Below are positions 2,841 to 49,300 of a stretch of DNA of 52,179 nt, one piece after another (positions within the stretch are counted from its first letter, which is position 1; each line of letters opens with the position of its first letter). Both the position numbers and the translations under genes were made by a program. Under the pieces are notes generated by a model. The model was not told the origin of the DNA and made no database searches. It worked only from the letters and a program-made list of their open reading frames with translations. Origin of the DNA: Oscillospiraceae bacterium (GTDB taxonomy: Bacteria; Bacillota; Clostridia; Oscillospirales; CAG-272); assembly GCA_015063745.1 (NCBI GenBank), contig SVTO01000014.1:1-52179 (forward strand), read 5' to 3'.

Positions 2841-3250
2841 CGTAGGGGAGTAGCTTGCTGCTCCCGCAACGATGGGTTACAGAGATACATTCGGATGGAA
2901 ATCGTACGTTTGCGGGAGGATCAAGATCCTCCCCTACGATTTTGGGGAGAGTTGGGTTTACAGCGGGAAGGTACGGCGGGCAGAGGGAAATTCGGCAAAT
3001 AGGTATTCCGTAGGGGAGTAGCTTGCTGCTCCCGCAACGATGGGTTACAGAGGTACATTCGGGTGGAAATCGTACGTTTGCGGGAGGATCAAGATCCTCC
3101 CCTACGGTTTTTGGGGGATTTACAGCGGGAAAGTGCGGCGGGCAGAGGGGAATTCGGCATATAGGTATTCTGTAGGGGAGCAGCTTGCTGCTCCCGCAAC
3201 GATGGGTTACAGAGATACATTCTTTTTTCAAAAAGCGTCCCGTTCCCCTT
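2841..3250 (+). repeat. R1 palindromic repeat array, left arm around the GH31 gene
   Basis: Two full R1 units lie at 2841-2938 and 3009-3106, and a half unit at 3171-3222; the period is about 165 bp. Each full unit has hairpin A (GGGAGTAGC-TT-GCTGCTCCC), about 45 bp of conserved linker, and hairpin B (GGGAGGATC-AA-GATCCTCCC). The unit is bounded by CGTAGGGGA and TCCCCTACG. The ~70-bp spacers are also conserved. The array ends with CTTTTTTCAAAAAGCG just before the GH31 promoter. The same array appears in inverted orientation at 5494-6145. Short ORFs here merely translate the repeat. Confidence 0.9.
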
Positions 3251-5493: not shown

Positions 5494-6145
5494 GGGGGGC
5501 GGGACGCTTTTTGAAAAAAGAATGTACCCCTGTAACCCATCGTTGCGGGAGCAGCAAGCTACTCCCCTACGAAATACCTATTTGCCGAACTCCCCTCTGC
5601 CCGCCGCACTCCCCCGCTGTAAACCCAATTCCCTCCAAAACCGTAGGGGAGGATCTTGATCCTCCCGCAAACGTACGATTTCCACCCGAATGTACCCCTG
5701 TAACCCATCGTTGCGGGAGCAGCAAGCTACTCCCCTACGGAATACCTATGTGCCGAATTTCCCTCTGCCCGCCGCACTCCCCCGCTGTAAACCCAACTCC
5801 CTCCAAAACCGTAGGGGAGGATCTTGATCCTCCCGCAAACGTACGATTTCCACCCGAATGTATCTTTGTAACCCATCGTTGCGGGAGCAGCAAGCTACTC
5901 CCCTACGGAATACCTATTTGCCGAATTCCCCTCTGCCCGCCGCACTTCCCCGCTGTAAATCCCCCCAAAACCGTAGGGGAGGATCTTGATCCTCCCGCAA
6001 ACGTACGATTTCCATCCGAATGTACCACTGTAATCCATCCGTAGGGAAGTAGCTTGCTGCTCCCACAAACGTACGATTCCACCCGAATGTACCACTGTAG
6101 TCCATCCGTAGGGGAGGATCTTGCTGCTCCCGCGAACGTATGGTT
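5494..6145 (-). repeat. R1 palindromic repeat array, right arm around the GH31 gene
   Basis: R1 lies here in the opposite orientation to the array at 2841-3250. There is a half unit at about 5520-5573, full units at 5642-5739 and 5810-5907, and a further unit starting at 5972. After about 6038 the array becomes mosaic: a hairpin A copy appears in forward orientation (6040-6065), followed by a hybrid whose left half is hairpin B and right half hairpin A (6108-6132). The first ~78 bp mirror 3171-3250 almost exactly, including GGGACGCTTTTTGAAAAAAG. The remaining stretch to the T-box promoter at 6233 shows no gene. Confidence 0.9.
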
Positions 6146-7944: not shown

Positions 7945-8066
7945 AGGGGGAGGGAGAAAAACTTTTTGCGAAAAAGCTTTTCTCCCTCCCCTGAAGAATT
8001 GCTGCGCAAATCTTCTAACCCCCTCCCACTTTTCAAAAAACTTTGGAAAATGGGTGGGGGTTTTGG
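7945..8066. repeat. R2 hairpin repeat between convergent genes
   Basis: The arm GGGGGAGGGAGAAAA pairs with TTTTCTCCCTCCCC across a TTTTTGCGAAAAA centre (7945-7991). A tail with CTTTTCAAAAAACTTTGGAAAA runs to about 8066. It sits between the stop codons of trpB2 and the GT-CsaB gene and may serve as a two-way terminator, since no other terminator is visible there. Confidence 0.85.
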
Positions 8067-8077
8067 TTTTTTTAGAC

Positions 8078-12509: not shown

Positions 12510-12669
12510 TACTTTGAGGGGGAACGGGGTCGCTTTTTGAAAAAAGCTCCGCAAAAACTTTTAAGAAGGGATTTGGGGTGGGGTTGGTACTGAATCGTTC
12601 GGCAGAGTGCGGTGCGTAGCCGGGGGGGACAGATTTATGTGAGTTCTGTTGACCAAATTCTTCCAAAAC

Positions 12670-12767
12670 TGTAGGGGAGTAGCTTGCTGCTCCCGTGACG
12701 AAGACCTACCGCGGTACATTTGGGTGTAAATTGTTTGTTTACGGGAGGATCAAGATCCTCCTCTACG
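12670..12767 (+). repeat. Single R1 unit at the centre of the palindromic element
   Basis: It has hairpin A (GGGAGTAGC-TT-GCTGCTCCC), a 45-bp linker and hairpin B (GGGAGGATC-AA-GATCCTCCT, slightly decayed). It has the same 98-bp length as units at 2.8 kb. Confidence 0.9.
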
Positions 12768-12929
12768 GTTTTATAAAGTAGCATCGGTCAACAGAACTCA
12801 CATAAATCCTGCACCCGGCTACGCACCGCACTCTGCCGAACGATTCAGTACCAACCCCATCCAATAATCCTTCCCAAAAGTTTTTGCGGAGCTTTTTTCA
12901 AAAAGCGACCCCGTTTCCCTCCAAAGTAT

Positions 12930-37814: not shown

Positions 37815-38590
37815 AATGCGGGAGGATCAAGATCCTCCCTTACGGGCTAAAGGTTTGGTATTCCAACCTTTGCCATGCTTTGCGTATCTCTCTTTTCGTA
37901 GGGGAGTAGCTTGCTGCTCCCGTAACGAAGGATTACAGAGGTACGTTGGGTAGAAAGTGTTCGTTTGCGGGAGGATCAAGATCCTCCCCTACGGGATTTA
38001 AGGATTGGTATTTCAACTCTCATCTTACCGTACATTTTTTCATGTAGGGGAGTAGCTTGCTGCTCCCGCAACGAAGGATTATAGAGGTACGTTGGGTAGA
38101 AAGTGTTCGTTTGTGGGAGGATCAAGATCCTCCCCTACGGGATTTAAGGATTGGTATTTCAACTCTCATCTTACCGTACATTTTTTCATGTAGGGGAGTA
38201 GCTTGCTGCTCCCGCAACGAAGGATTATAGCAGTACGTTGGGTGGAAAGCGTTCGTTTGCGGGAGGATCAAGATCTTCTCCTACAAGCTAAAGGTTTGGT
38301 ATTCCAATCTTTGCCATGCTTTGCGTATCTCTCTTTTCGTAGGGGAGTAGCTTGCTGCTCCCGCAACGAAGGATTATAGCAGTACGTTGGGTGGAAAGCG
38401 TTCGTTTGCGGGAGGATCAAGATCTTCCCTTACAGGCTAAAGGTTTGGTATTCCAATCTTTTCCATGCTTTGCGTATCTCTCTTTTCGTAGGGGAGTAGC
38501 TTGCTGCTCCCGTAACGAAGGATTACAGAGGTACGTTGGGTAGAAAGTGTTCGTTTGCGGGAGGATCAAGATCCTCCCCTACGGGATTTA
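37815..38590 (+). repeat. R1 palindromic repeat array beside the RAYT gene
   Basis: One hairpin B half unit (about 37818-37846) is followed by five full R1 units at 37897-37993, 38043-38139, 38189-38284, 38338-38434 and 38487-38583. The period is 146-149 bp. Hairpins A and B are as in the other arrays; linkers and spacers are a different subfamily (GAAGGATTAYAG, TACGTTGGGT, AAAGTGTTCGTTTG). Units three and four have a decayed hairpin B (GATCTTC). The array lies 35 bp from the end of the transposase gene. No gene is seen in 37725-38624. Confidence 0.92.
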
Positions 38591-38624
38591 AGGGTTTGTA
38601 TATACATAAAACCGAGTAGTCAAA

Positions 38625-39212
38625 TCATTTTTCACTGGTACACATGTGTTTATAGAACCAATGTATTGGATTGTCACGTATATATTGGCGTTTTGCATTA
38701 TAATCCTCTTTATCCCGGATTATATGTTCCATATATGAACGCTGAAACAATTTTTCAACATGATATTTCTGCTTGCATATACGGGATGTTATGGATTTGT
38801 AAACACGCATAATGTCAAATAACGAGGGTGTGGCGGCGTCTGCGCTTTTATACAGAATGATGATTGCGTGTATGTGATCCGGCATAATTACATAGTCAGA
38901 AATTTTTACATTCGGATAACGCTTTTCGAGTGCAAGCAATTGTTCAACAGCGATTTCTCCCATTGCTTTCAAACATAATGGGGGAACATATTGCTGCCCC
39001 CGTGATGAAAGATTGGAACGCATGTCTGCGGGAGGATCAAGATCCTCCCCTACGGGACTTATAGTTTGTGCAGACACGGAAGATATCGCTGCATATTCAG
39101 ATAAAAGTCTTTTGCGGTCTTGGGTACAGATGGTGACAAAGAATGCATTTGTATTGCAGTAATCATGACTGTTTAATCGCAGTTTTTTTCTTTTTGGCAG
39201 ATCCTCTTCCAT
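38625..39212 (-). CDS. REP-associated tyrosine transposase (RAYT, Y1 HUH family)
   Basis: 195 residues. The start matches RAYT/IS200-like proteins (RLNSHDYCNTNAFFVTICTQDR), the HUH motif is in YVIMPDHIHAIIIL near residue 110, the probable catalytic Tyr is in RSYMEHIIRD near 165, and the end has the typical YIRDNPIHW. RAYTs are single-copy nucleases thought to mobilise REP palindromes. The frame looks intact. Residues ~53-80 (SPVGEDLDPPADMRS...SRGQQYVPP) are encoded by an inserted R1 copy. The adjacent R1 array supports the partnership. The ribosome binding site is weak (GAGAG). It lies 19 bp downstream of the HAD gene on the same strand. Confidence 0.88.
   Translation of the reverse strand: MEEDLPKRKKLRLNSHDYCNTNAFFVTICTQDRKRLLSEYAAISSVSAQTISPVGEDLDPPADMRSNLSSRGQQYVPPLCLKAMGEIAVEQLLALEKRYPNVKISDYVIMPDHIHAIIILYKSADAATPSLFDIMRVYKSITSRICKQKYHVEKLFQRSYMEHIIRDKEDYNAKRQYIRDNPIHWFYKHMCTSEK
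38976..39055 (+). repeat. R1 copy inside the RAYT reading frame
   Basis: Hairpin B is perfect (GGGAGGATC-AA-GATCCTCCC, then CCTACGGGA). The linker and hairpin A are diverged but recognisable (GGGGGAACATATTGCTGCCCCC, then GTGATGAAAGATT, compare GCAACGAAGGATT in the nearby array). The orientation matches the array at 37.8-38.6 kb. The coding frame stays open through it. Confidence 0.88.
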
Positions 39213-39230
39213 ATTCTCTCACGCTCCGGT

Positions 39231-39863
39231 TTAGAACAACTCCGTAAGTGCCGCCGCGGTTTCCACAACGGTGCATCCTGCGAATTCCTCCGCACAGCCG
39301 AAGCCCCAGAGAACACCGATGCAGGAGATCCCGAACTCCGCTGCGCCTTCCGCATCATATACCCGGTCGCCGATCATGCGCCAGTCGTCTGCATTGCCGT
39401 CAGCGGGGGATGTGCCCAGCCTGCGGAATAATTCTGCCAGTACATCCGCTTTCCGGTTCCGCTTGGTGTCCATGACCGCACCGCAGATCTCCGTGAAATA
39501 CTCCGCAACACCCAATGCCTCCAGCATCGCACGGGCAAAGCTTTCCGGTTTGGAGGTGCCGATGTAGAGCTTGTGGCCTTTTTCGCATAAAGCAGCCAGC
39601 ATTTCCCGGATGCCGTCGTACAGATACGCATCGTACATCCCGTGATCCTTGTAGTGGACCCGGTAGTTGATCAGCGCCTGCTCCGCCGTTTCCTTGTCAA
39701 TGCCGCAGAATTCCATCATGGCGGGCAGCAGAGGAGGACCGATGAACCGACCCATGTTTTCGGGTACGCCAATGCCCATTTCGATAAAGGTTTCCTTGAG
39801 ACAGGAGATGATCCCCGGAGAAGTATCGGCAATCGTGCCGTCAAAATCGAAGATAATGTGCAA
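39231..39863 (-). CDS. HAD-superfamily phosphatase (phosphoglycolate phosphatase-like)
   Basis: 210 residues. HAD motif I is IIFDFDGTIADT, motif II IGTSKPESF near residue 105, and motif IV MIGDRVYD near 165. It has a helical cap of the C1 type, so a small phosphorylated metabolite is the likely substrate. The start codon is TTG at 39863, supported by AGGAGG at 7-nt spacing. It starts 2 bp after the mnmM stop, so the two are co-translated. Confidence 0.88.
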   Translation of the reverse strand: MHIIFDFDGTIADTSPGIISCLKETFIEMGIGVPENMGRFIGPPLLPAMMEFCGIDKETAEQALINYRVHYKDHGMYDAYLYDGIREMLAALCEKGHKLYIGTSKPESFARAMLEALGVAEYFTEICGAVMDTKRNRKADVLAELFRRLGTSPADGNADDWRMIGDRVYDAEGAAEFGISCIGVLWGFGCAEEFAGCTVVETAAALTELF

Positions 39864-39865
39864 TT

Positions 39866-40432
39866 TTATTCCTCCTTCGCTTTTGTCTCAATGACCATGA
39901 AGTAGGGACTGGTCGGAGAGTTCAGCATGCGGAACTGGGCGATCGTGTAGCGGAAACGGGACAGCGTAGCCAGATAGGCCGACAGCTCCTGTCCTTCCAG
40001 CTCTCCCTCCGGATGACCCGGATATACCGCAATCAGCAGTACCGCATCGTCGTCCAGCATGGCAATGGCATTTTCCACCGCCGGCAGAGTCGTGGTGCGC
40101 TTGGTGGTCACGTGCTTGTTTCCGTTGCCGGGGAGGTACCCCAGATTGAACATCCCGGCCTTGATCTTTCCCGGAATATAGGCGGGGGCGTTGTGGTGGG
40201 AATCGCAGATCAGGTGCCAGTTGTCCGGACAGCCGTTTTTGCGGAGATTGGATGCCGTGGAATGGAGGGCGGGCGGCTGGATGTCGAAAGCGTACACTTT
40301 GCCGGTACTGCCCACGGTGTTCGAGAGAAATACCGTGTCGTAGCCGTTGCCCATGGTGAAATCCACCGCCGTGTCCCCTTCGCGGAGATGGGCGAGGATG
40401 AAGGTTTTCTGCAGGGAAAGTAAATCAAGCAT
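39866..40432 (-). CDS. mnmM: tRNA (mnm5s2U34)-type methyltransferase, YtqB/MnmM family
   Basis: 188 residues of a class I SAM methyltransferase. The SAM-binding motif is AVDFTMGNGYDTVFL near residue 23, followed by VYAFDIQ. The FNLGYLPGGN-like segment (FNLGYLPGNGNK) near residue 95 is typical of the YtqB family, shown in Gram-positives to methylate the wobble uridine modification. AAAGGAT precedes the ATG. Confidence 0.88.
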   Translation of the reverse strand: MLDLLSLQKTFILAHLREGDTAVDFTMGNGYDTVFLSNTVGSTGKVYAFDIQPPALHSTASNLRKNGCPDNWHLICDSHHNAPAYIPGKIKAGMFNLGYLPGNGNKHVTTKRTTTLPAVENAIAMLDDDAVLLIAVYPGHPEGELEGQELSAYLATLSRFRYTIAQFRMLNSPTSPYFMVIETKAKEE

Positions 40433-40462
40433 AATGGTGATCCTTTGTTATCGGTAAGTCGT

Positions 40463-42487
40463 TCAGCCTACGATGGCGTCGATGGCGTTTTTCAGCATTT
40501 CGATGGCTTCTTCCATGGTGGTACCCGTGATCTGGGCGCCTGCCGCATCGAAATGTCCGCCGCCCTTGAGCTGTTCCAGAATCAGCTGTACGTTGATTTT
40601 TCCGTGGGAACGGGCGGAGATATGGATGGTGTCACCGATGCGCACCAGAGCGAAGGATGCGTCCACGCCTTCCACAGCCAGCAGATTGTTGGCGGCCTTG
40701 GCGGCGATGACACGGTCGGCGGGGCCGGTTTCCGTATCGTCCACAGCCCAGCAGGTGATGGCGGTGTTCTGGCGGTACAGGATGACATTCTGACGGAAGC
40801 GTGCTTCGCGGAGGTAGTCCTCCAGATTGGTGCGGTTCAGGTTCTGGATCACTTCCGTATTGGCGCCGCAGTCACGCAGGAACATAGCCGCGCTGAAGGT
40901 ACGGGTACCCACGTTTTTCGTAAACTGCTGGGTATCCAGATTGATGCCGGCCAGAAGCAGACTGGCTTCCTGGGAGGACAGCTCGTCCCTGGGAAGCACC
41001 TGTTCCAGCATTTCCGTCACCAGCTCGCAGGCCGAGGATGCGGAAGGCTCGATATATTCAATGGACGGATTGCGTTCGAATTCCGCCATCTGTCTGTGGT
41101 GGTCGATGATGGCCAGATTGTCCGTGCGGAGTACGATATCCTTGGATTCCATCTGCATCACGTTGTTTACGTCGGCCACAACCACAAGGGTGCCGGTTTC
41201 CAGCAGGTCAAGACCTCTGGCTTCGTCGATGAGCACGCCCAGGAAATCACTGTCGGAGGCCAGCAGTTCTCTGCAGCCGGACAGATTCCGGTCGCCCATC
41301 TGAACGATCATATTGACTCTTGCGCCGCAGAACATCGCCATACGCGCCAGACCCACGCAGGCACCGAAGGAGTCGAAATCCGCGAATTTGTGGCCCATGA
41401 TGAGCACATTGGAGGCCTTCTTCATGGCGGAGATCAGCTCGCCGGAGATCACTCGGGAACGGACATTGGTGCGCTTCTGCACCGTCTTGGTCACGCCGCC
41501 GTAGAAGTCCAGGGATGCGTCGCTTTTCACGATGGCCTGGTCACCGCCGCGCTGGAGTGCCATATCAAGAGCATTGTATGCCGCCCGTTCCTTGTCCTCG
41601 AAGGAGCCGTGGATGTTGGCAACACCGAGGGAAATGGTCATGGGCAGCTCGGCATCTCCCACACGAACGGCGCGGACCTTGTCAAGAATATCGAATTTCC
41701 GGGCGATGCAGGTATTCAGCGTGCGGTTTTCCATAACGAAGAGGTATTTGTCTCTTTCGTATTCCTTCAGGATACCGCCGCATTCATCGGCCCATCTGCG
41801 GAGAATATCGTCGATCCGGGAAGCGGCCGCACGGTAGTTTTCGCTGTCGTACTGCATCATTTCGGCCAGATTGTCGATGTAGATATAGGCAACGGCCAAT
41901 TCCCCGTCGGCGATCTTGTGCTTGAGCTGCTGTATCTCGGTGGTTTCGGTGGTGACGATCAGATAGAAATCCGTTTCGTCCGTTTTGATGTGGTGATATT
42001 TGGGGGTAAAATACCGGTTTCCGTTCTGCAGAACCAGTTCGGTGTCCTGATGCTTGTTTTCCCGGATTTCTTCCAGAGAAACGCCGAACAGAGCAGAAAG
42101 GGTGGCGCCGTAGAGCTTACCGGTGGGAAAGGACAGTCCTTCCGTGGCAGTATTGTACCAGATTACGTGCTCCGCATCATCGCAGATGAAGATGGGCGAG
42201 GGCATTTTCAGAACGGCATTGAACATGATTTTGCCCATAACGGGGGTCAGGGTTTCGGTCAGGGTGCCGCCCCTGTACAGCTTCCGCTTCCAGAGAATCC
42301 GTACCGCGACATAGACCAGCACGAACAGAACCGCCAGAGCGCCGCCGACGATCAGTCCCTTACGGTCGGGAGAGGAGGCGATGCCGGAGAGAAAGATCAG
42401 AACCGCACCCAGAATCACGGGAGCCGTTTTCTGCAGGATTTCGCGAAGGGAGCCGGGGTCTTTGTGTTTCCATATATTTTTGAACAT
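40463..42487 (-). CDS. gdpP: Cyclic-di-AMP phosphodiesterase GdpP (DHH/DHHA1)
   Basis: 674 residues. Two N-terminal transmembrane helices (about 20-62) are followed by a PAS-like region (~80-170), a degenerate GGDEF domain (~175-300) and a DHH/DHHA1 phosphodiesterase. Metal-binding motifs are IMGHKFADFDSFGA near residue 362, VADVNN and IDHHR near 460. It degrades the second messenger c-di-AMP. AGGAG lies 8 nt before the ATG. It follows yybS by 24 bp, as in Bacillus. Confidence 0.94.
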   Translation of the reverse strand: MFKNIWKHKDPGSLREILQKTAPVILGAVLIFLSGIASSPDRKGLIVGGALAVLFVLVYVAVRILWKRKLYRGGTLTETLTPVMGKIMFNAVLKMPSPIFICDDAEHVIWYNTATEGLSFPTGKLYGATLSALFGVSLEEIRENKHQDTELVLQNGNRYFTPKYHHIKTDETDFYLIVTTETTEIQQLKHKIADGELAVAYIYIDNLAEMMQYDSENYRAAASRIDDILRRWADECGGILKEYERDKYLFVMENRTLNTCIARKFDILDKVRAVRVGDAELPMTISLGVANIHGSFEDKERAAYNALDMALQRGGDQAIVKSDASLDFYGGVTKTVQKRTNVRSRVISGELISAMKKASNVLIMGHKFADFDSFGACVGLARMAMFCGARVNMIVQMGDRNLSGCRELLASDSDFLGVLIDEARGLDLLETGTLVVVADVNNVMQMESKDIVLRTDNLAIIDHHRQMAEFERNPSIEYIEPSASSACELVTEMLEQVLPRDELSSQEASLLLAGINLDTQQFTKNVGTRTFSAAMFLRDCGANTEVIQNLNRTNLEDYLREARFRQNVILYRQNTAITCWAVDDTETGPADRVIAAKAANNLLAVEGVDASFALVRIGDTIHISARSHGKINVQLILEQLKGGGHFDAAGAQITGTTMEEAIEMLKNAIDAIVG

Positions 42488-42511
42488 GACTGAACTCCTG
42501 TTGTGTTTTCG

Positions 42512-43534
42512 TTAGGATCGGGATTCGTCGGTCTTGCGGGTACGCAGGATGTAGAAGGCACCCAGAGCCGAGGAAAGGGTAAGTACGGTGGGAACGCCCA
42601 TCACCAGCACCAGAAATACGCCGATGAAAACAAAGGTGAGGGGAATACGGCGGCTTACGGAACCGTCGGGACCAATGCGGAAGAAGAAAAACCGATTCTG
42701 TATTCCCGTGCAGAATTCTCTGATGCCCACATAGGCGCAGGGCAGAGCGAGAACGGACAGAATATTGGAGAGAATACAGTACAGAAAGGGATAATCGACG
42801 GGGGAAGTGAACAGCGTCAGCAGCAGAGCGATCAGGGAAAGGACGCCGAAGCTGCGGGGCGCGGTGATCTGTCCGTCGGTATCATGCCGGAAGTATTCCG
42901 CACAGTCCAGGATCCGCAGGAAGGTGCGGGAAAGGAAGAAAACGGATGCGGCAAGAAACTCGGCAGCGGCACCGATCATGGCCGGCAGGGAAAGAAGCGC
43001 CGTACGGGTCAGACCGGATGCCATGCCCGCATCGAAGGTGAAATTCCCCTGGGCGGCGGCCTGCTTCAGAAGAATATCGGCCGCGGTCAGTACATCACGA
43101 TGGAAAGCGGAGAAGGAATCGTAGTACAGGGCAAAGCCGGCAAAGGAACCGGCAGCCAGCAAAAGGGCGATTCCGCAGGAAAGGGCGGTTATCCGTACAA
43201 ACCGGTTTTTCCCGTTCAGCATAAGCCATCCGGCCAGCCACGGTACGACCAGCATGGTAAGGGACACAGCCGCGACACAGAATATGCCGTACCCCGCCGC
43301 CCACAGGCACAGGGCAGTTACGGGAACCAGCAGAAGCGCCGCCATACTGCGCCACAGAATGATGATGGAACAGCAGACCGCCGCCGCCGTCGTCCAGAAG
43401 GGCAGAGCGATGAGCACTCCGTAGGCTTCAGCCGCCGCCGCACCCATCCAGGCAAACCCGAGTGCCAGGATCGCAGCCACCATCAGCAGCGCGGGACGAA
43501 TCTGCGGCAGATCCGTTCGTTTCCAGCCAGACAT
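42512..43534 (-). CDS. YybS-like membrane protein (DUF2232)
   Basis: 340 residues with about eight hydrophobic segments and a short basic C-terminus. The position directly upstream of gdpP matches yybS in Bacillus, and the overall look fits DUF2232. Its function is not established. The start at MSGWKRTDLPQIRP is used because AGGAGG lies 8 nt upstream; the longer open frame runs into the mntP gene. A consensus promoter lies 55 bp upstream. Confidence 0.82.
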   Translation of the reverse strand: MSGWKRTDLPQIRPALLMVAAILALGFAWMGAAAAEAYGVLIALPFWTTAAAVCCSIIILWRSMAALLLVPVTALCLWAAGYGIFCVAAVSLTMLVVPWLAGWLMLNGKNRFVRITALSCGIALLLAAGSFAGFALYYDSFSAFHRDVLTAADILLKQAAAQGNFTFDAGMASGLTRTALLSLPAMIGAAAEFLAASVFFLSRTFLRILDCAEYFRHDTDGQITAPRSFGVLSLIALLLTLFTSPVDYPFLYCILSNILSVLALPCAYVGIREFCTGIQNRFFFFRIGPDGSVSRRIPLTFVFIGVFLVLVMGVPTVLTLSSALGAFYILRTRKTDESRS

Positions 43535-43588
43535 ACCGCCACCTCCTTTTTTCGCAATTTTCGCAAATAGGTATATTTTTACTTCTAT

Positions 43589-43617
43589 ATTATAGCAGAA
43601 TACGGCACTTCTGTCAA
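43589..43617 (-). promoter_or_regulatory. Promoter of yybS-gdpP
   Basis: On the minus strand: TTGACA, a 17-bp spacer and TATAAT, both perfect consensus boxes. Confidence 0.9.
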
Positions 43618-43667
43618 TAAGTACCGTGCGGAAGAGGGCTTGTCCGGGCGTGGGACGGGGATTGCCC

Positions 43668-43696
43668 TTGACAAAACCTCCGTAAAGGTGTATACT
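43668..43696 (+). promoter_or_regulatory. Promoter of mntP
   Basis: TTGACA (43668-43673), a 17-bp spacer and TATACT (43691-43696). The leader is only about 40 nt, too short for a manganese (yybP-ykoY) riboswitch. Confidence 0.85.
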
Positions 43697-43739
43697 ATCA
43701 CAATATGGACCAAAAAACACATAAGGAACGGTTGGAAAT

Positions 43740-44303
43740 ATGGAATTATGGGAAATGGCGGTCATCGCGGTAGGTTTGTCCATGGACGCATTCGCTGTGG
43801 CGGTCTGCAAGGGGCTGTCCGTCGGGAAAATCAAGCCGGCGCACATACTGATCACAGGTGTATGGTTCGGCGGATTTCAGGCGCTGATGCCCCTTATCGG
43901 ATATCTGCTGGGCGTACGTTTTGAATCGCTGATTACGGAGATTGACCATTGGATCGCGTTCGTGCTGCTGGGACTGATCGGCGGCAACATGATCAGAGAA
44001 GCCCTGAAGGGAGAAGAGGAAGAAATGTGCGATTCCTTCGGCATCCGGGCGATGTTTCCCATGGCAGTAGCCACCAGCATTGATGCGCTGGCAGTCGGCG
44101 TGACCTTTGCTTTCCTGGGCGTAAAGATCGGCCCGGCGGTAAGCTTTATCGGTGTGATCACATTTGTTCTGTCGGCAGTTGGTGTGGTGATCGGAAATGT
44201 ATTCGGTGCGAAGTTCAAGAGCAAAGCGGAATTTGCCGGCGGTGTCGTGCTGATTCTGATGGGACTCAAGATTCTGCTGGAGCATCTGGGGATCATCGGG
44301 TAA
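43740..44303 (+). CDS. mntP: Manganese efflux pump MntP
   Basis: 187 residues with six membrane segments in two similar halves. The conserved acidic motifs [14 protein letters not shown] and [13 protein letters not shown] hold the transport Asp residues. It exports Mn(II). The ribosome binding site is weak (AAGGA at 13 nt or TTGGAAAT). Confidence 0.93.
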
Positions 44304-44329
44304 GTAAAAGAATGCAAATCTTTATAAAA

Positions 44330-44388
44330 ACAAAGAGCAGTCGGGATGTATAAAACCATTCCGTCTGCCCTTTCTTTTTCCCGAACAG
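44330..44388 (+). terminator. Probable terminator of mntP
   Basis: The stem GAGCAGTCGGGATG / CATTCCGTCTGCCC, with one mismatch and wobble pairs, is followed by TTTCTTTTT. Confidence 0.65.
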
Positions 44389-44427
44389 GAACAAACAAAG
44401 GAACTGTCACAAGCCAAAAGTTTTGAT

Positions 44428-44493
44428 CGACCTTTTTCAAAAGGTCGTGGGGATTGAAGGGGCAACGCCCCTCATCGACCTCCGCAGAGGTCG
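44428..44493. repeat. Three-hairpin palindromic element
   Basis: Three short hairpins in a row: CGACCTTTTTCAAAAGGTCG, GGGGCAACGCCCC and CGACCTCCGCAGAGGTCG. They lie between convergent genes (mntP and the PHP gene). Confidence 0.7.
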
Positions 44494-44543
44494 AAACACC
44501 CATGCCTTCTGAAAAAGTACGAATCAACGGCCTGAACTAAAGA

Positions 44544-44591
44544 AGGGGCTGTCGCATTCAGGACATTTCCCCCTTAACGCAGCAGCCCCGT
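44544..44591 (-). terminator. Probable terminator of the PHP gene
   Basis: On the minus strand the stem GGGGCTGCTGC / GCGACAGCCCC is followed by TTCTTTAG. The T run is weak. Confidence 0.5.
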
Positions 44592-44596
44592 GAAAA

Positions 44597-45394
44597 TCAC
44601 AGGTTTTTCAGAAAATCGATCTTGTCGTCTTCTTTCAGCTCCAGCAGATCCACGATATGCTCGAAATTCTCTTTCGAAGTGTGCATCTGTTCGTCCGGAT
44701 GATGGGAGTCGGAACCGAAGTAGAACTTGCAGCCTTCTTCCTTGGCGATCCGGTAAGGAAGGAGCGTGGTTTCCAGCGCTTCGCCGGTCAGATCCAGGGA
44801 ATAGAAGTTCAGCTCAATACCCACACCCACCTTTGCCGCCTTGGCAAACAGACGGTGGTATTCCGAGTGGGGAATCAGATCCAGTACCTCCAGATGATGA
44901 CCGCGGCAGATATGCTCGCAGGTCAGATGGGCAATCCCGATTTTGTGGAAGGGCAGATCCATGTCCAGTACGGTTTCCAGCCGCTTGCACCACAGCTCAG
45001 CCCGTTCTTCGATCCCCTCATCGCCGCCCACCGTGAAGCCGCCTATGTGCATATGGGTGGTGGGGATGATGAACCAGTCCAGCTTGTCCATGACGGCAGG
45101 GGAAATACCGAGGGTCATGTCCCATTTCAGCTCCGTTTCACAGCCGAACAGGAATTTTACCTTGTCCGACTGGGGCAGGGGCAGATTTTCGCTGATGTGT
45201 TCATAGCTCTGTCCGGCGTACCAGTCGGAAGCACCGGGAACGGCACTGTCCCACATATGGTCGGTAACGCACAGGGTCCTGTATCCGTTTTTCTCCGCAT
45301 AGGCAAGCAGTGCGGCGGGATTCTGTGCGGGGTTGCCGGAGCAGTAGGATTTCATGGAATGAATATGTATATCATGGTCTGTGATGTAACGCAT
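44597..45394 (-). CDS. PHP-domain phosphoesterase (histidinol-phosphatase-like)
   Basis: 265 residues. PHP metal-binding motifs are HDIHIHS (residues 7-13), VTDHM near 43 and GSDSHHPDE near 230. The family includes histidinol-phosphate phosphatases and DNA-polymerase-linked PHP domains. No his genes are nearby, so the substrate is open. GGAG lies upstream of the ATG and a clear promoter is present. Confidence 0.85.
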   Translation of the reverse strand: MRYITDHDIHIHSMKSYCSGNPAQNPAALLAYAEKNGYRTLCVTDHMWDSAVPGASDWYAGQSYEHISENLPLPQSDKVKFLFGCETELKWDMTLGISPAVMDKLDWFIIPTTHMHIGGFTVGGDEGIEERAELWCKRLETVLDMDLPFHKIGIAHLTCEHICRGHHLEVLDLIPHSEYHRLFAKAAKVGVGIELNFYSLDLTGEALETTLLPYRIAKEEGCKFYFGSDSHHPDEQMHTSKENFEHIVDLLELKEDDKIDFLKNL

Positions 45395-45428
45395 GGTTTT
45401 TTCTCCTTTACAAAGCCATATCTACTTT

Positions 45429-45457
45429 ATTTTACCCCGTCAGTCGGGTGTTGTCAA
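45429..45457 (-). promoter_or_regulatory. Promoter of the PHP gene
   Basis: On the minus strand: TTGACA, a 17-bp spacer and TAAAAT. Confidence 0.8.
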
Positions 45458-45564
45458 TAGGGCAGAGGAAATTTCGTCTGTTTTTCGGAAAATAATGCTT
45501 TGGCAGAAACACTACAAAATCACATTTCCGGCGCCGTTTTTTAGGAAAATTCACAAAATCGGTG

Positions 45565-45593
45565 TTTACAACGGGGAATAAATATGGTATACT
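45565..45593 (+). promoter_or_regulatory. Promoter of hpf
   Basis: TTTACA (45565-45570), a 17-bp spacer and TATACT (45588-45593), with an extended -10 TGG. Confidence 0.8.
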
Positions 45594-45645
45594 GTAACCA
45601 AGGATAAGGCAACGAGTCCGAATACTGAGTAAAGGTGGTAAGTTC

Positions 45646-46182
45646 ATGAATATTACGTACATTGCAAGACAGGTCAACATTACCGATGATATGAAACAGC
45701 TGGTGGAAAAGAAACTGGCAAAGTTCGACCGCTATTTCCCGGAAAACGCCGATGCAACGGTGACTTTCCGCAAGATCCGCAATGATGAATGTATGGAGAT
45801 CACCATCTCAGTCGGCGGTACACTCTTCCGGGCGGAAGAACAGACGGATATGTACTCCACGGCCCTCGTGCGCTGCGTGGATACCATCGAAGGACAGATC
45901 CGCAAGAATAAGACCCGCCTGGAAAAACGGATGCGCAGCTCCTTCCGCGTTCCGGATCCCATGCCCGGCGACGAAGTGCTGGAAGCCGAAGAAGAAGCCT
46001 TCCTGATCCGCACCAAGCGTTTCTGCCTCAAGCCCATGTCCGCGGAAGAGGCGATTCTGCAGATGAATCTGCTGGGACATTCCTTCTTCATTTATACCGA
46101 TGCGGATACTTCGGAGATCTGCGTGGTTTATAAGCGGTCCGATGACAGTTATGGCGTGATTATTCCGGAGAAGGAAGTTTGA
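45646..46182 (+). CDS. hpf: Ribosome hibernation promoting factor, long form
   Basis: 178 residues. The N-terminal S30AE domain (1-~100, MNITYIARQVNITDDMKQLV) binds the 30S decoding site, and the C-terminal domain (~120-178, LKPMSAEEAILQMNLLGHSFFIY) drives dimerisation of 70S ribosomes into 100S particles. The start has AAAGGTGG upstream. An R2 hairpin follows the stop codon and may serve as terminator. Confidence 0.95.
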   Translation: MNITYIARQVNITDDMKQLVEKKLAKFDRYFPENADATVTFRKIRNDECMEITISVGGTLFRAEEQTDMYSTALVRCVDTIEGQIRKNKTRLEKRMRSSFRVPDPMPGDEVLEAEEEAFLIRTKRFCLKPMSAEEAILQMNLLGHSFFIYTDADTSEICVVYKRSDDSYGVIIPEKEV

Positions 46183-46199
46183 TATTTGACTTGCGTTTT

Positions 46200-46270
46200 G
46201 CAGGGGAAGGAAAACTTTTTGAAAAAAGTTTTCCTTCCCCTGCACCCCTTTCTTTCCAAAACTTTTCGTG
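46200..46270. repeat. R2 hairpin repeat after hpf
   Basis: A perfect palindrome at 46200-46243 has 21-bp arms (GCAGGGGAAGGAAAACTTTTT) and a two-base loop, followed by the tail ACCCCTTTCTTTCCAAAACTTTT. Confidence 0.92.
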
Positions 46271-46394
46271 TAAGGCTCTTCGCTTTCGGGCGGGGGCTTT
46301 TTGTTTTGGATTTCCCGGTTATTATCCGTTTGGATTTTTCAGGTTTCGTTCTGACCCATCATTACCCACCGGTCTTCCGTGAAAGCTTGCCGGC

Positions 46395-46401
46395 TTCGAC
46401 A
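46395..46401 (-). promoter_or_regulatory. Possible Spo0A box upstream of spoIIE
   Basis: TTCGACA, the complement of the consensus 0A box TGTCGAA, lies 207 bp before the spoIIE start. A 7-bp match alone is weak evidence. Confidence 0.25.
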
Positions 46402-46443
46402 GCCCGGATTCACGGTTATTTGCAGAAGACTTGTGATATCATT

Positions 46444-46493
46444 ATCCCGCAGCCGGAAAATGTCTGTGATTCCTGCCGCGGGATTTCTTTTTT
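46444..46493 (+). terminator. Terminator-like hairpin upstream of spoIIE
   Basis: ATCCCGC (46444-46450) pairs with GCGGGAT (46478-46484), with inner CCGG/CCTG pairing, followed by TTTCTTTTTT. It may end hpf read-through or a small leader RNA. The rest of 46270-46600 shows no gene. Confidence 0.55.
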
Positions 46494-46607
46494 GGGGGAA
46501 AGAGGAAGCCGGGCGGCGGATACGGAAACCTGCTCGGGTATACTGTATGGCTGAGAAAGAAATAATTTGATACATATTTTTGGAAAACGGGAAAATCGGA
46601 GGACGAT

Positions 46608-49016
46608 ATGAAAGAAAAGGCGGTTAAAAGGTTTGCGGGTGTGCAGCTGTCGTGGAAACGGCTGGCTGTGATGATCGGAATGTTTGTGTTCGGTCTTGCG
46701 GTGGCCGGCGGGGAATCCTTTCTGGGTACATACCCTTTCGGACTGTCGGCGGCAGCGGCGGTTTCGGGATTTGCGGGTACGGCGGCGGTGTCACTTGGGG
46801 CGATACTCGGCTCATTGCGGGCGGGGGGATTTCTTTCGGTGGTTACGGCACTGCTTTTTTGCGCAAGGGCAGGACTGACGGTGTTTCTGGTTTCGGAGAA
46901 GGGAGTCCCTTTGGGTCGGGGGTTCCGCCGGATCCGGGAAGAGGCCGGACAGCTTACCCCCTTTGCCGTCCTGCAGTGGGCGGAGCAGTATCTGTTCAGG
47001 GAATCGATCATGATCCGCATGGCGCTGGCAGCCCTTGCGTCTTTAGCGGCGGGTGCATGGGCTGTGGTGGACGGCGGGTATGTGTATTACGATCTGGTGG
47101 GCGCGATTCTGGCGGTGATGCTCGCACCGGTGATCACCTACGGGTTCTACGCCGCCCATGACCGGTATATGCGCTATTCTCCCTTCCGTGAGGCGGGGAT
47201 TCTCCTGCTTGCCGCCGTGTTTACCTATTCTCTGTCCGGCATCGGCATACCCTTTCTGGAGCTGAACGCGGGACAGGCGGCATCCTTTGCGGCGGCTCTG
47301 CTCTGCGGGTGTACCCTCGGCACATCCAAGGGCGGACTGATGGGCCTGGCCTGCGGGATTTTGCTGGAGCCGATCTATGCCCCGGCCTATGCATTGGTGG
47401 GCATCGTCAGCGGTGCGGCTTCGGCGTACTCCCGTCCTTTGGCCTGTGCGGCGGCAACGGTGGCAGGGGCGGCGTGGGGTATCTATACGGGCGGATATGA
47501 CGGACTTCGTGCCCTGACACCGGAATTTCTGCTGGTCAGTGCCGTACTCATGCCCCTTTTGTATTACGAAAAACTGCGGATTCCGCCTCAATGGCTGGGA
47601 CAGATGCCGGATACCCGCCGGACGGAAAGCGCGACCCTTGCCGAAACGGTGCTGAAACAGCGGGAAAAACAGCTGACGAATATGGCGGACAGTATGCAGG
47701 ACCTGTCCCGTGTGCTGGACGGCGTGGCGGAGAAAATGTCGAAACCCGGCCTGCGGGAAATGCGGGATCTGTGCGAAGGCTGCTTTGCCCCCTACTGCAG
47801 CGGATGCACAAAGCTTTCCGAATGTCAGGATAAGGATTACCCCCGGTTCAGCGGCATGATCGGCGAAATGGCCGCCGGCCTGATCCGGGAAAACAGCATA
47901 CCGGCTTCGGCGATCCCCCCGAAATTCGCCAGCCGATGTGCCTCCATGGGCAGGATACTGGACGACATCAACACCACAGCCGCCCGGTACATAGGCGAAA
48001 AACGGACGGGCGACAAACTGCGCACAGCGGCGGATGATTATTACCTCATGGGCGCACTGCTTTCGGAATCGGCCCGACTGGAAGCGGAAGAGGGAACGCC
48101 GGATACGGAAATGACGGACAGACTGAAAAAACTCCTGCGGTATCAGGATTTCCATGCCGGCAGTGCGGCTGTGTACGGCGGCAGACATAAGCGAATTTTC
48201 GTCCACGACATCGACCTGTCGGAAACCCGGATGGGCGGGGAAGAGATCCGGCACCTGTTCAGCGAAATGGCGGGCATCCCCCTGTCCGCTCCCGAATTCT
48301 CCCTGGACGGCCCGATTCTGTCCATGCAGATGCATTCCCTCCCCCTGTGCAGCTGCCAATGGGGACAGGCGGGACGGGCGGCATCGACCCTGACGGAAGA
48401 AACGGTACTGCCGGAGGACAAGCCCTCGGGTGATACGGTGTGCGCCTTTGAAGCGGACGGGAAAATGTATATGCTGATCTCCGACGGCATGGGCAGCGGA
48501 CGTATGGCGGCCACCACATCGGGCATCACGGCATTGTTTCTGGAACGTATGCTTTCCGCTGGAACAGGACTGGAAGTAGCTCTGCGGATGCTGAACAACG
48601 TCATCCGCGCGGGTACGGGAGAATGCTCGGCCACGGTGGATCTGTGCGAGGTGGATACCGTCACGGGGGAAGCACGTTTTGTGAAAAGCGGCGCGGCACC
48701 GTCCTTCGTGATCCGCGGCGAGAGCCTGTTCCGCCTGCAGTCGAAAACGGTCCCCATCGGCATCCTGCGTGCATTGGATGCGGAAATGATCCGCTTCACG
48801 ATCATGCCGGGTGACACGATCGTAATGGTATCCGACGGCATTGCCCGGAGTTTCGAAGAATGTACATGGCTTCTGGATCTGTTGTCGGCGGATGAAGAAG
48901 TACGGGAAGGCGACCCGGATCATGCAGCGGAGCGAATCCTGACCTGTGCAGCGGAACACGGAGCGGAGGATGACATTACAGCAGGGGTTGTCAGAATTGT
49001 GGGCTGCAATCGGTAA
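46608..49016 (+). CDS. spoIIE: Stage II sporulation protein E (PP2C phosphatase)
   Basis: 802 residues. About ten N-terminal membrane segments (to ~320) are followed by a central FtsZ-interaction region with a Cys cluster (CEGCFAPYCSGCTKLSEC near 390) and a C-terminal PP2C phosphatase (~590-800) with LISDGMGSGRMA and VMVSDGIARSFEE. It dephosphorylates SpoIIAA and so activates sigma-F in the forespore, and it helps place the asymmetric septum. GGAGGA lies 5 nt before the ATG. It is strong evidence that the organism sporulates. Confidence 0.95.
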   Translation: MKEKAVKRFAGVQLSWKRLAVMIGMFVFGLAVAGGESFLGTYPFGLSAAAAVSGFAGTAAVSLGAILGSLRAGGFLSVVTALLFCARAGLTVFLVSEKGVPLGRGFRRIREEAGQLTPFAVLQWAEQYLFRESIMIRMALAALASLAAGAWAVVDGGYVYYDLVGAILAVMLAPVITYGFYAAHDRYMRYSPFREAGILLLAAVFTYSLSGIGIPFLELNAGQAASFAAALLCGCTLGTSKGGLMGLACGILLEPIYAPAYALVGIVSGAASAYSRPLACAAATVAGAAWGIYTGGYDGLRALTPEFLLVSAVLMPLLYYEKLRIPPQWLGQMPDTRRTESATLAETVLKQREKQLTNMADSMQDLSRVLDGVAEKMSKPGLREMRDLCEGCFAPYCSGCTKLSECQDKDYPRFSGMIGEMAAGLIRENSIPASAIPPKFASRCASMGRILDDINTTAARYIGEKRTGDKLRTAADDYYLMGALLSESARLEAEEGTPDTEMTDRLKKLLRYQDFHAGSAAVYGGRHKRIFVHDIDLSETRMGGEEIRHLFSEMAGIPLSAPEFSLDGPILSMQMHSLPLCSCQWGQAGRAASTLTEETVLPEDKPSGDTVCAFEADGKMYMLISDGMGSGRMAATTSGITALFLERMLSAGTGLEVALRMLNNVIRAGTGECSATVDLCEVDTVTGEARFVKSGAAPSFVIRGESLFRLQSKTVPIGILRALDAEMIRFTIMPGDTIVMVSDGIARSFEECTWLLDLLSADEEVREGDPDHAAERILTCAAEHGAEDDITAGVVRIVGCNR

Positions 49017-49054
49017 GGAAGAGGTGGTTACAGAGGGAGGTATGATTGAAATCG

Positions 49055-49300
49055 TATGTTTGCGGGAGCGGCAAGCCGTTCCCCACAGATTACAGCGGTG
49101 ATGTCCGGTGAAATCGTATGTTTACGGGAGCAGCAAGCTACTCCCCTACGGTATTTGGGGGGATGTTGGATCAACAGAACTGACATAAATCCTGCACCCG
49201 AGGACTGCCCTCATCTTGCACCCAAAGAATCCGGCGTTGGGTGGAGTTTGTCTCGACCAACTCCACCAAGCTTTTTTCAAAAAGCGTCCCGTCTCCCCCG
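49055..49300. repeat. Decayed R1 and palindromic-element fragments
   Basis: 49060-49083 is an R1-like hairpin with a different stem (GGGAGCGGC-AA-GCCGTTCCC), and 49115-49152 is a normal hairpin A ending CCCCTACG. From 49175 to 49300 the sequence resembles one arm of the 12.5-kb palindromic element (TCAACAGAACT, ACATAAATCCTGCACCCG, CTTTTTTCAAAAAGCG). No gene lies in 49017-49343. Confidence 0.75.

Follow-up and report, generated by a model that had tools for sequence, protein, structure and literature searches.

Outward-facing GTAG REPINs beside a clostridial RAYT gene, and inverted REP pairs within the RAYT genes of its relatives

Introduction

A 52,179-nucleotide contig of an Oscillospiraceae bacterium (SVTO01000014.1, assembly GCA_015063745.1; hereafter the window) carries a tandem array of a repeat, R1, beside the gene of a putative tyrosine transposase. 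Do repeat and enzyme form a pair of the kind described for repetitive extragenic palindromes (REPs) and REP-associated tyrosine transposases (RAYTs, or TnpA_REP proteins), and can the likely target of such an enzyme be read from the DNA? An earlier note on the window had proposed a pair of this kind with a distinct REP family. Here we report that R1 is a GTAG REPIN family, and that RAYT genes of related Clostridia hold an inverted pair of REPs in frame, one on each side of the HUH motif. The two copies are constrained at the DNA level and change with each other, and REP type is tied more tightly to the middle of the protein than to its ends.

Published systems are cited here from the portions of each text available to us. 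In P. fluorescens SBW25, a REPIN is an inverted REP doublet with a spacer; tandem clusters of near-identical REPINs and their flanks lie beside RAYT genes, and REP singlets are regarded as remnants (PMC3116915). GTAG-tagged REPs have a stem of mostly 6-9 bp with GTAG at one end, form head-head dimers and adjoin RAYT genes in REPtrons (Di Nocera et al., 2013; PMC3733652); in the available text of that paper there is no mention of Firmicutes or "Clostridi". RAYT genes flanked by two inverted REPs have been described (PMC2817692). TnpA_REP proteins cleave single-stranded REPs at CT or CA, and GTAG plays a part in this; experiments on REP recognition cover few RAYTs, the E. coli enzyme being the sole earlier case, with Stenotrophomonas and Marinomonas among the additions (PMC8266576). 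Genes of TnpA_REP subclass 2.4 contain in-frame REPs, generally between HuH and Y, and Cyanobacteria and Bacteroidetes are named as abundant, with other phyla scattered (Quentin et al., 2018; PMC6006769).

Results

The array next to the gene (37819-38582) comprises one isolated REP and five complete R1 units of 95 bp each, with a period of 146-149.

37819-37843, minus strand: isolated R1 REP, GATC-type half with head GTAA
37898-37992, plus strand: R1 REPIN 1, 95 bp; TAG-type REP, spacer and inverted GATC-type REP, with GTAG heads outside
38044-38138, plus strand: R1 REPIN 2, 95 bp
38190-38284, plus strand: R1 REPIN 3, 95 bp, two mismatches in the right half
38339-38433, plus strand: R1 REPIN 4, 95 bp, two mismatches in the right half
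38488-38582, plus strand: R1 REPIN 5, 95 bp
38625-39212, minus strand: RAYT (TnpA_REP) open reading frame (ORF), 195 aa, with Pfam, NCBIfam and PDB matches

A unit reads GTAGGGGAGTAGCTTGCTGCTCCC, spacer and the reverse complement of GTAGGGGAGGATCTTGATCCTCCC, with changes in some units, so that the GTAG heads face outwards. R1 is thus a GTAG REPIN family: two GTAG-headed REPs, inverted, in 95-96 bp. The window and the stretches fetched from elsewhere in the assembly together hold 71 R1 sites at 19 loci, among them 24 complete units. All of these are 95 or 96 bp long, and each consists of inverted GC-rich hairpins with GTAG heads outside, one half TAG-type and the other GATC-type. The earlier note had rightly counted five full units beside the gene (starts at 37898, 38044, 38190, 38339 and 38488). 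It had also taken R1 for a larger, distinct unit with two hairpins and outer inverted ends of its own, which it is not: the anatomy is that of an ordinary 95-96 bp REPIN, and the supposed ends are the GTAG heads that define a REP. That both hairpins are perfect is true in part. In three of the five units the core of the GATC half forms a perfect 9-bp stem, and in the remaining two it has one or two changes; one G-T pair occurs in the TAG half. The distance from array to gene, given as 35 bp, is 42 bp, the last REP ending at 38582 and the RAYT stop codon starting at 38625.

The neighbouring protein, called a tyrosine transposase in the same note, is indeed a RAYT relative. It matches Pfam Y1_Tnp above the cut-off (5.9e-7) and PDB 4er8, the E. 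coli TnpA_REP (E 0.0016); its best NCBIfam match is NF047646 (REP_Tyr_transpos), at 69.8 bits under a curated cut-off of 80, a model matched by 10 of 10 A1 members. As in 4er8 and Gammaproteobacterial RAYTs, HUH and Tyr motifs are present: HUH at residues 113-115, within PDHIH at 111-115, and, at an HUH-Y distance of 64, Tyr177, aligned to residue 115 of 4er8 (counted on the alignment), the Tyr in DYIYINP. The IS200/IS605 TnpA model NF033573 gives 22.6 bits, below its cut-off of 55. The gene looks intact in that the ORF is open over 195 aa with HUH and the aligned Tyr, but an in-frame REP and a degenerate partner occupy residues 54 to ~78. An AlphaFold2 model from a 10-row alignment (mean predicted local distance difference test score, pLDDT, 74.8; predicted template modelling score 0.71) has a confident core, mostly above 85. 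Confidence is low at the N-terminus and in the translated in-frame REPIN, with 10-residue block means of 47-60 at residues 41-80.

RAYT/REPIN biology extends well into gut Clostridia. Among the best 80 named relatives of the window RAYT (of at least 460 matches), 79 have Clostridia-type titles. Relatives occur in 95 of 196 genomes of the family at 1e-5 and in 30 of 398 genomes of a phylum sample at 1e-10 with alignment, a count not directly comparable with that for the family.

R1 is not a product of chance, because a degenerate R1 pattern allowing two or fewer mismatches finds 72 sites in the 2.44 Mb genome (81 contigs, 82% complete; the window is contig C13) and one with a reversed-pattern control. 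A copy number of 71-72 sites in this 82% complete assembly compares with the more than 100 per genome usual for GTAG REPs. The earlier note had called for a search of related genomes, in which R1 proved nearly confined to its source: the degenerate pattern has 58 matches in the source genome, one among 191 other family genomes and none in four genomes of the same genus, and the close relative G142 has zero R1 matches. No RAYT match listed among the 196 family genomes exceeds 56% identity to the window RAYT. The pairing of R1 with its RAYT appears to be recent in the source lineage, as judged from one genome positive for R1 abundance alongside its RAYT type (58 against 1 in 191 others). A role of R1 as transcription terminators only is ruled out by the fixed unit length, the near-confinement to the source genome and the REP inside a coding gene.

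R1 lies on 7 of the 81 contigs (C12, C13, C15, C16, C49, C59 and C60), plus one doubtful two-mismatch hit on C32, as if its spread had been regional. Array periods vary from locus to locus, which suggests that local tandem duplication enlarged the arrays after arrival. At the RAYT locus, three same-genus genomes have IorB, ~150-350 bp and a methyltransferase gene in opposite orientation, with no space for a RAYT; this arrangement would fit insertion, but mixed with rearrangement. Inverted cognate REPs on both sides of the window RAYT were not found: the R1 array is 3' only, and from 39050 to 49063 there is no R1-like core at five or fewer mismatches.

R1 also occurs within the RAYT gene itself, where the following places matter for the comparison with relatives.

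39030-39053, minus strand: in-frame REP (codon phase 0) within the RAYT gene, translated as VGEDLDPP at residues 54-61, where relatives have REP1
38982-39001, minus strand: remnant of an in-frame REPIN, a second and degenerate REP half in that loop
38820-38846, minus strand: residues 123-131 (SADAATPSL), where relatives have the REP2 loop; no recognisable REP, inverted-match score 9

The in-frame REP has the sequence GTAGGGGAGGATCTTGATCCTCCC, that of the GATC-type half. In relatives, the loop before HUH reads VGEGLAPP, VGRGLAPA, VGTGV and the like, and the loop after HUH reads GGASPSPT, AGASPRPT or SRTPVPT; the two loops are the same REP DNA read on opposite strands. We scored this inverted match in a family sample of 91 loci, which are the two RAYTs of the source genome and 89 higher-scoring places from the search of 196 genomes. 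Three loci without an HUH ORF and one with too short windows were lost, leaving 87. The score is at least 12 in 79 of these and at least 16 in 74; shuffled controls reach 14 (median 7) and direct-repeat controls 16 (median 8). The direct-repeat control attains 12 or more in 8 of the 87 genes because REPs are palindromes. An overlapping sample of 80 named loci, 79 scored after L170 proved too short, gave 71 at 12 or more and 68 at 16 or more. With duplicates removed, 137 of 153 family and named genes reach 12 and 130 reach 16, with in-frame inverted REPs either side of HUH. The pair lies in codon phase (0,2) in 70 of 74 family genes and 62 of 70 named genes, and HUH-Y distance has a median of 66 and a range of 57-83 (126 paired genes). 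Extra or decayed REP copies occur in some genes. Conservatibacter flavescens, which we take to be a Pasteurellaceae, has a RAYT of this family (L192, 10001-10462) with plain loops, in which no internal pair was detected.

For further tests, these genes were pooled with a phylum-wide sample from outside the family (29 loci, one without ORF, 28 scored). The pooled set has 196 genes with 183 unique cores, of which 181 were scored (153 family or named and 28 phylum) and 142 reach 12. A score of at least 16 together with GTAG in the matched stretch defined a set of 129 genes; 127 were kept for stem comparison and 120 for a two-tree test.

The internal REPs are constrained at the DNA level, their stems vary by compensation, and the two copies change together. 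When gene pairs are binned only by protein identity outside the REPs, fourfold sites are identical at 0.79 in REP1, 0.76 in REP2 and 0.31 elsewhere for pairs of 50-60% identity, and at 0.95, 0.945 and 0.38 for pairs of 70-80%. Over the four bins from 50 to 90% the ranges are 0.76-0.98 in REP codons and 0.31-0.58 elsewhere; for pairs of 40-50% the values are 0.67 and 0.60 in the REPs and 0.29 elsewhere. With hairpin length chosen for best fit, at least six of seven stem positions are Watson-Crick pairs in 120 of 129 REP1 and 120 of 128 REP2 copies, and GC, CG, AT and TA pairs all occur at stem positions 3-6. REP1 and REP2 share their 6-nt stem in 113 of 127 genes; shuffling gives a mean of 18.7 and a maximum of 35. 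On a FastTree tree the stem label changes 34 times at REP1 and 32 times at REP2, and the joint label 37 times.

REP type is also linked to the protein. Where two genes of 40-60% overall identity share a REP type, their similarity is higher by 0.11 in the 27 columns after REP2 (permutation standard deviation 0.007), compared with +0.02 in the HUH stretch, -0.02 at the N-terminus and -0.05 at the C-end. The column that tells most about REP type holds the residue following W/F-Q. With relatedness not removed, it is Arg with stem GGGAGG in 33 of 35 genes, Thr with GGCGGG in 21 of 23, Lys with GGGCGA in 18 of 20 and Ala with GGACAG in 3 of 3. In E. coli TnpA_REP, W94, Q95, E100, H101 and R104 are discussed in connection with the GTAG guide sequence, and the role of W94 is called unclear (PMC6006769). 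REP type tracks the middle of the protein more closely than the ends: for the same 120 rows, REP-type changes number 34 on a tree of the middle (32-44 in column bootstraps) and 54 on a tree of the gene ends (49-60), against about 80 with shuffled labels. Of the local nucleotide matches between genes of different type, 1078 start before REP1 and end within its first 40 bases, and 35 pass through. Exchange of a middle cassette would give this pattern, as would stronger constraint on the ends. The DNA before the RAYT start codon is alike across REP types (L007, L008, L015, L022, L076 and L085), possibly as a shared leader or promoter.

The REP types of the genes recur elsewhere in genomes. The earlier note had described the window RAYT as single-copy; the source genome has a second, L262 (C81:60453-60983), whose internal pair is of another type and which has REPINs of its own. 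Three REPINs of that type lie at C49:4062-4212, C49:8087-8224 and C59:3072-3211, and sites of the type total eight at three or fewer mismatches, against 0 in the control. In all four pairs of this type, the loop carries CCCC in one half and CCTC in the other. The two common in-gene REP types are found in 83 of 192 family genomes, with a control of 0. Within 10 kb of the named genes, and outside them, their own REP words were counted 23 times, against 1.4 expected from foreign words. Counts at two or fewer mismatches in 12 genomes included 83 REP sites in G129, 53 in G028, 50 in G157, 12 in G012, 7 in G026, 5 in G143 and 1 in G142. In G022, G038 and G048 the searched REP has exactly one site per strand, although assembly gaps and other types remain possible; both sites are inside the RAYT gene in G038 and G048, and the count in G022 equals the pair in L009.

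Discussion

The R1 REPINs are probably cognate to the adjoining RAYT, and the in-gene inverted REP pair of the family is probably part of one specificity cassette. In this proposal, RAYTs would cut single-stranded DNA at GTAG-headed hairpins, which for the window enzyme would be those of R1, and would move or copy REPINs in trans; the arrays could afterwards enlarge by local tandem duplication. In this family of RAYT genes the enzyme's own likely REPs stand in its coding sequence, as an in-frame inverted pair in the loops before and after the HUH strand. Both keep their hairpins and change with each other and with a protein stretch that includes the putative GTAG-contact zone. Most probably, RAYTs act on the internal REPs or recombine through them, so that REP1, HUH, REP2 and alphaC behave as one specificity cassette. 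Binding or cleavage of the internal REPs by the protein, and exchange of cassettes, would be parts of such a mechanism.

Several observations weigh against this proposal. The support for RAYT-REPIN matching is computational. The window gene itself is without a REP1/REP2 pair, having a REP and a degenerate partner at the first site and no recognisable REP at the second. Outside the family, 5 of 28 phylum-sample genes reach a score of 12 and 3 of 28 reach 16. Both copies have GTAG heads in 128 of 129 genes, in part by selection, because GTAG at REP1 was an entry condition of that set. As REP types are shared, only 38 of 87 genes have their own REP2 as the best-scoring partner of REP1, ties included, and own REP words occur outside the gene in 12 of 56 named loci only. 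G057 and G136, 97-98% complete, have 30 and 19 REP sites and no match to the window RAYT at 1e-5; REPs can outlast or lack a RAYT, or a distant RAYT can have been missed. Synonymous sites support cassette exchange weakly, since fourfold identity between types differs little (0.35 at the N-terminus, 0.27 in the middle), and RAYTs of different type in one genome are without near-identical ends; neither result establishes recent exchange. The internal pair may mark the limits of a cassette or act as an operator, or it may consist of tolerated insertions.

The last of these, passive insertion with homogenisation, is possible though rather unlikely. REPs would enter RAYT genes, only in-frame insertions in surface loops would survive, without function in the gene, and RAYT-driven gene conversion with genomic REPs would keep the copies alike. 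The low predicted confidence of the REPIN-coded segment in the window RAYT and the extra or decayed copies in some genes are consistent with this, and the available text of PMC6006769 calls the variable region peripheral and insertions there perhaps of little impact. Position, orientation and phase, however, are nearly fixed (70 of 74), and 3 of the 12 genomes counted (G022, G038 and G048) have no visible genomic donor of the searched type, within the limits given above.

We give autoregulation a slightly lower standing and regard it as doubtful. The internal pair would here be an operator: a REP1/REP2 stem of 24-30 bp in the mRNA, an RNase III-like target, or binding of the RAYT to its own hairpins would keep expression low. 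In the minimum-energy folds predicted for the mRNA, REP1 is paired with REP2 in 127 of 129 genes, and in six genes compared the fold energies lie 20-40 kcal/mol below those of codon-shuffled versions. The pairing, however, follows from the selection of complementary copies and is not independent evidence, and autoregulation does not predict the link between REP type and protein stretch.

A bolder version of the cassette, which we hold only tentatively and as rather improbable, is that the stretch from REP1 through HUH and REP2 to alphaC is itself mobile, a REPIN whose cargo is its own transposase's catalytic motif. RAYT cleavage at the two internal GTAG hairpins would then allow an in-frame swap between RAYT genes, in which target and reader would travel together and the gene ends would stay.

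That the R1 sites are an artefact of assembly or binning, arising from misjoined repeats or foreign contigs of a metagenome-assembled genome, is quite unlikely. Two arrays, 5546-6132 and 37819-38582, coincide with synteny breaks relative to G142, in which the block corresponding to 6226 onward lies ~670 bp after IorB. With R1 on 7 contigs, these breaks mean that recombination between arrays and misassembly both have to be considered, and misjoins at arrays are possible. Foreign contigs as the source of R1 are disfavoured: tetranucleotide similarity of the R1 contigs to each other averages 0.934, and that of 12 sampled non-R1 stretches to R1 contigs, taken per stretch and with masked row L273 left out, is 0.88-0.94. 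One non-R1 contig is 76-83% identical to G142 over three long matches, and the long matches of the window lie at 72-89%. Internal pairs, moreover, recur in many other genomes.

Constraint on the peptides, with VGEGLAPP- and GGASPSPT-like loops conserved as protein and the DNA symmetry incidental, agrees with the conservation of loop amino acids within types but is extremely improbable, and as sole cause of the loops it is ruled out by the fourfold-site identity and the compensating stems; moreover, the same DNA gives different peptides on opposite strands.

How does this family compare with known systems? R1 shares with the SBW25 REPINs the inverted doublet plan and a tandem array beside a RAYT, and the word GGGCTTGCTCCCGATG in a legend of PMC3116915 has GGGCTTGCTCC in common with REPs of this RAYT family. 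It differs in its clostridial host, in the fixed pairing of TAG-type and GATC-type halves (24 of 24 units), in fewer copies and in REPs within the RAYT coding sequence. R1 resembles the GTAG-tagged REPs and REPtrons of PMC3733652 as set beside them by description, not by consensus sequence. Gammaproteobacterial RAYT genes have their inverted REPs flanking the gene (PMC2817692), whereas the clostridial family has them inside. In-frame REPs in tnpA_REP genes have been known since 2018, and with subclass 2.4 of PMC6006769 the family shares these and flanking REPs as well. In contrast to the partial account of subclass 2.4 available to us, the clostridial pair is inverted, mostly type-matched and brackets HUH, and the HUH-Y distance is shorter (median 66 against 88, compared without the subclass hidden Markov models). 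The paired arrangement around HUH was not found described; in the open-access literature, from which subscription papers are mostly missing, we found no report of it.

If the internal REPs are cognate targets, the targets of more than 100 paired RAYT genes could be read from the coding sequence, and matching REP stems to the residue that follows W/F-Q would put the recognition code to the test. A protein whose loops are encoded by its own DNA target, with both co-evolving, would also be unusual.

Other repeats in the window

R1 occurs at six places within the 52 kb, as the earlier note had counted: 37819-38582, 39030-39053 and the four below.

2842-3196, plus strand: R1 array of two REPINs and one half, between ORFs of at least 100 aa
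5546-6132, minus strand: R1 array of two REPINs and additional halves, between ORFs of at least 100 aa
12671-12766, plus strand: lone R1 REPIN inside a larger inverted repeat, between ORFs of at least 100 aa
49064-49149, minus strand: two R1-like REPs oriented alike (four mismatches in the first), overlapping the start of a mechanical ORF

R1 is thus mostly extragenic, four of the six places lying between ORFs of at least 100 aa, one overlapping an ORF start and one lying inside the RAYT. A clean empty site was sought in G142 and none was obtained at 12671-12766 or 49064-49149; the genes bordering both places are adjacent there, and the DNA between them is not alignable to the window and resembles other repeats. 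The REPIN at 12671 is flanked by inverted copies of a repeat (12518-12585 and 12856-12919) that is multi-copy in G142, G601, G595 and G606, and it looks nested in a larger inverted-repeat element. More repeat families lie at 2642-2752, 7947-8068 and 46196-46262, with many copies in G142.
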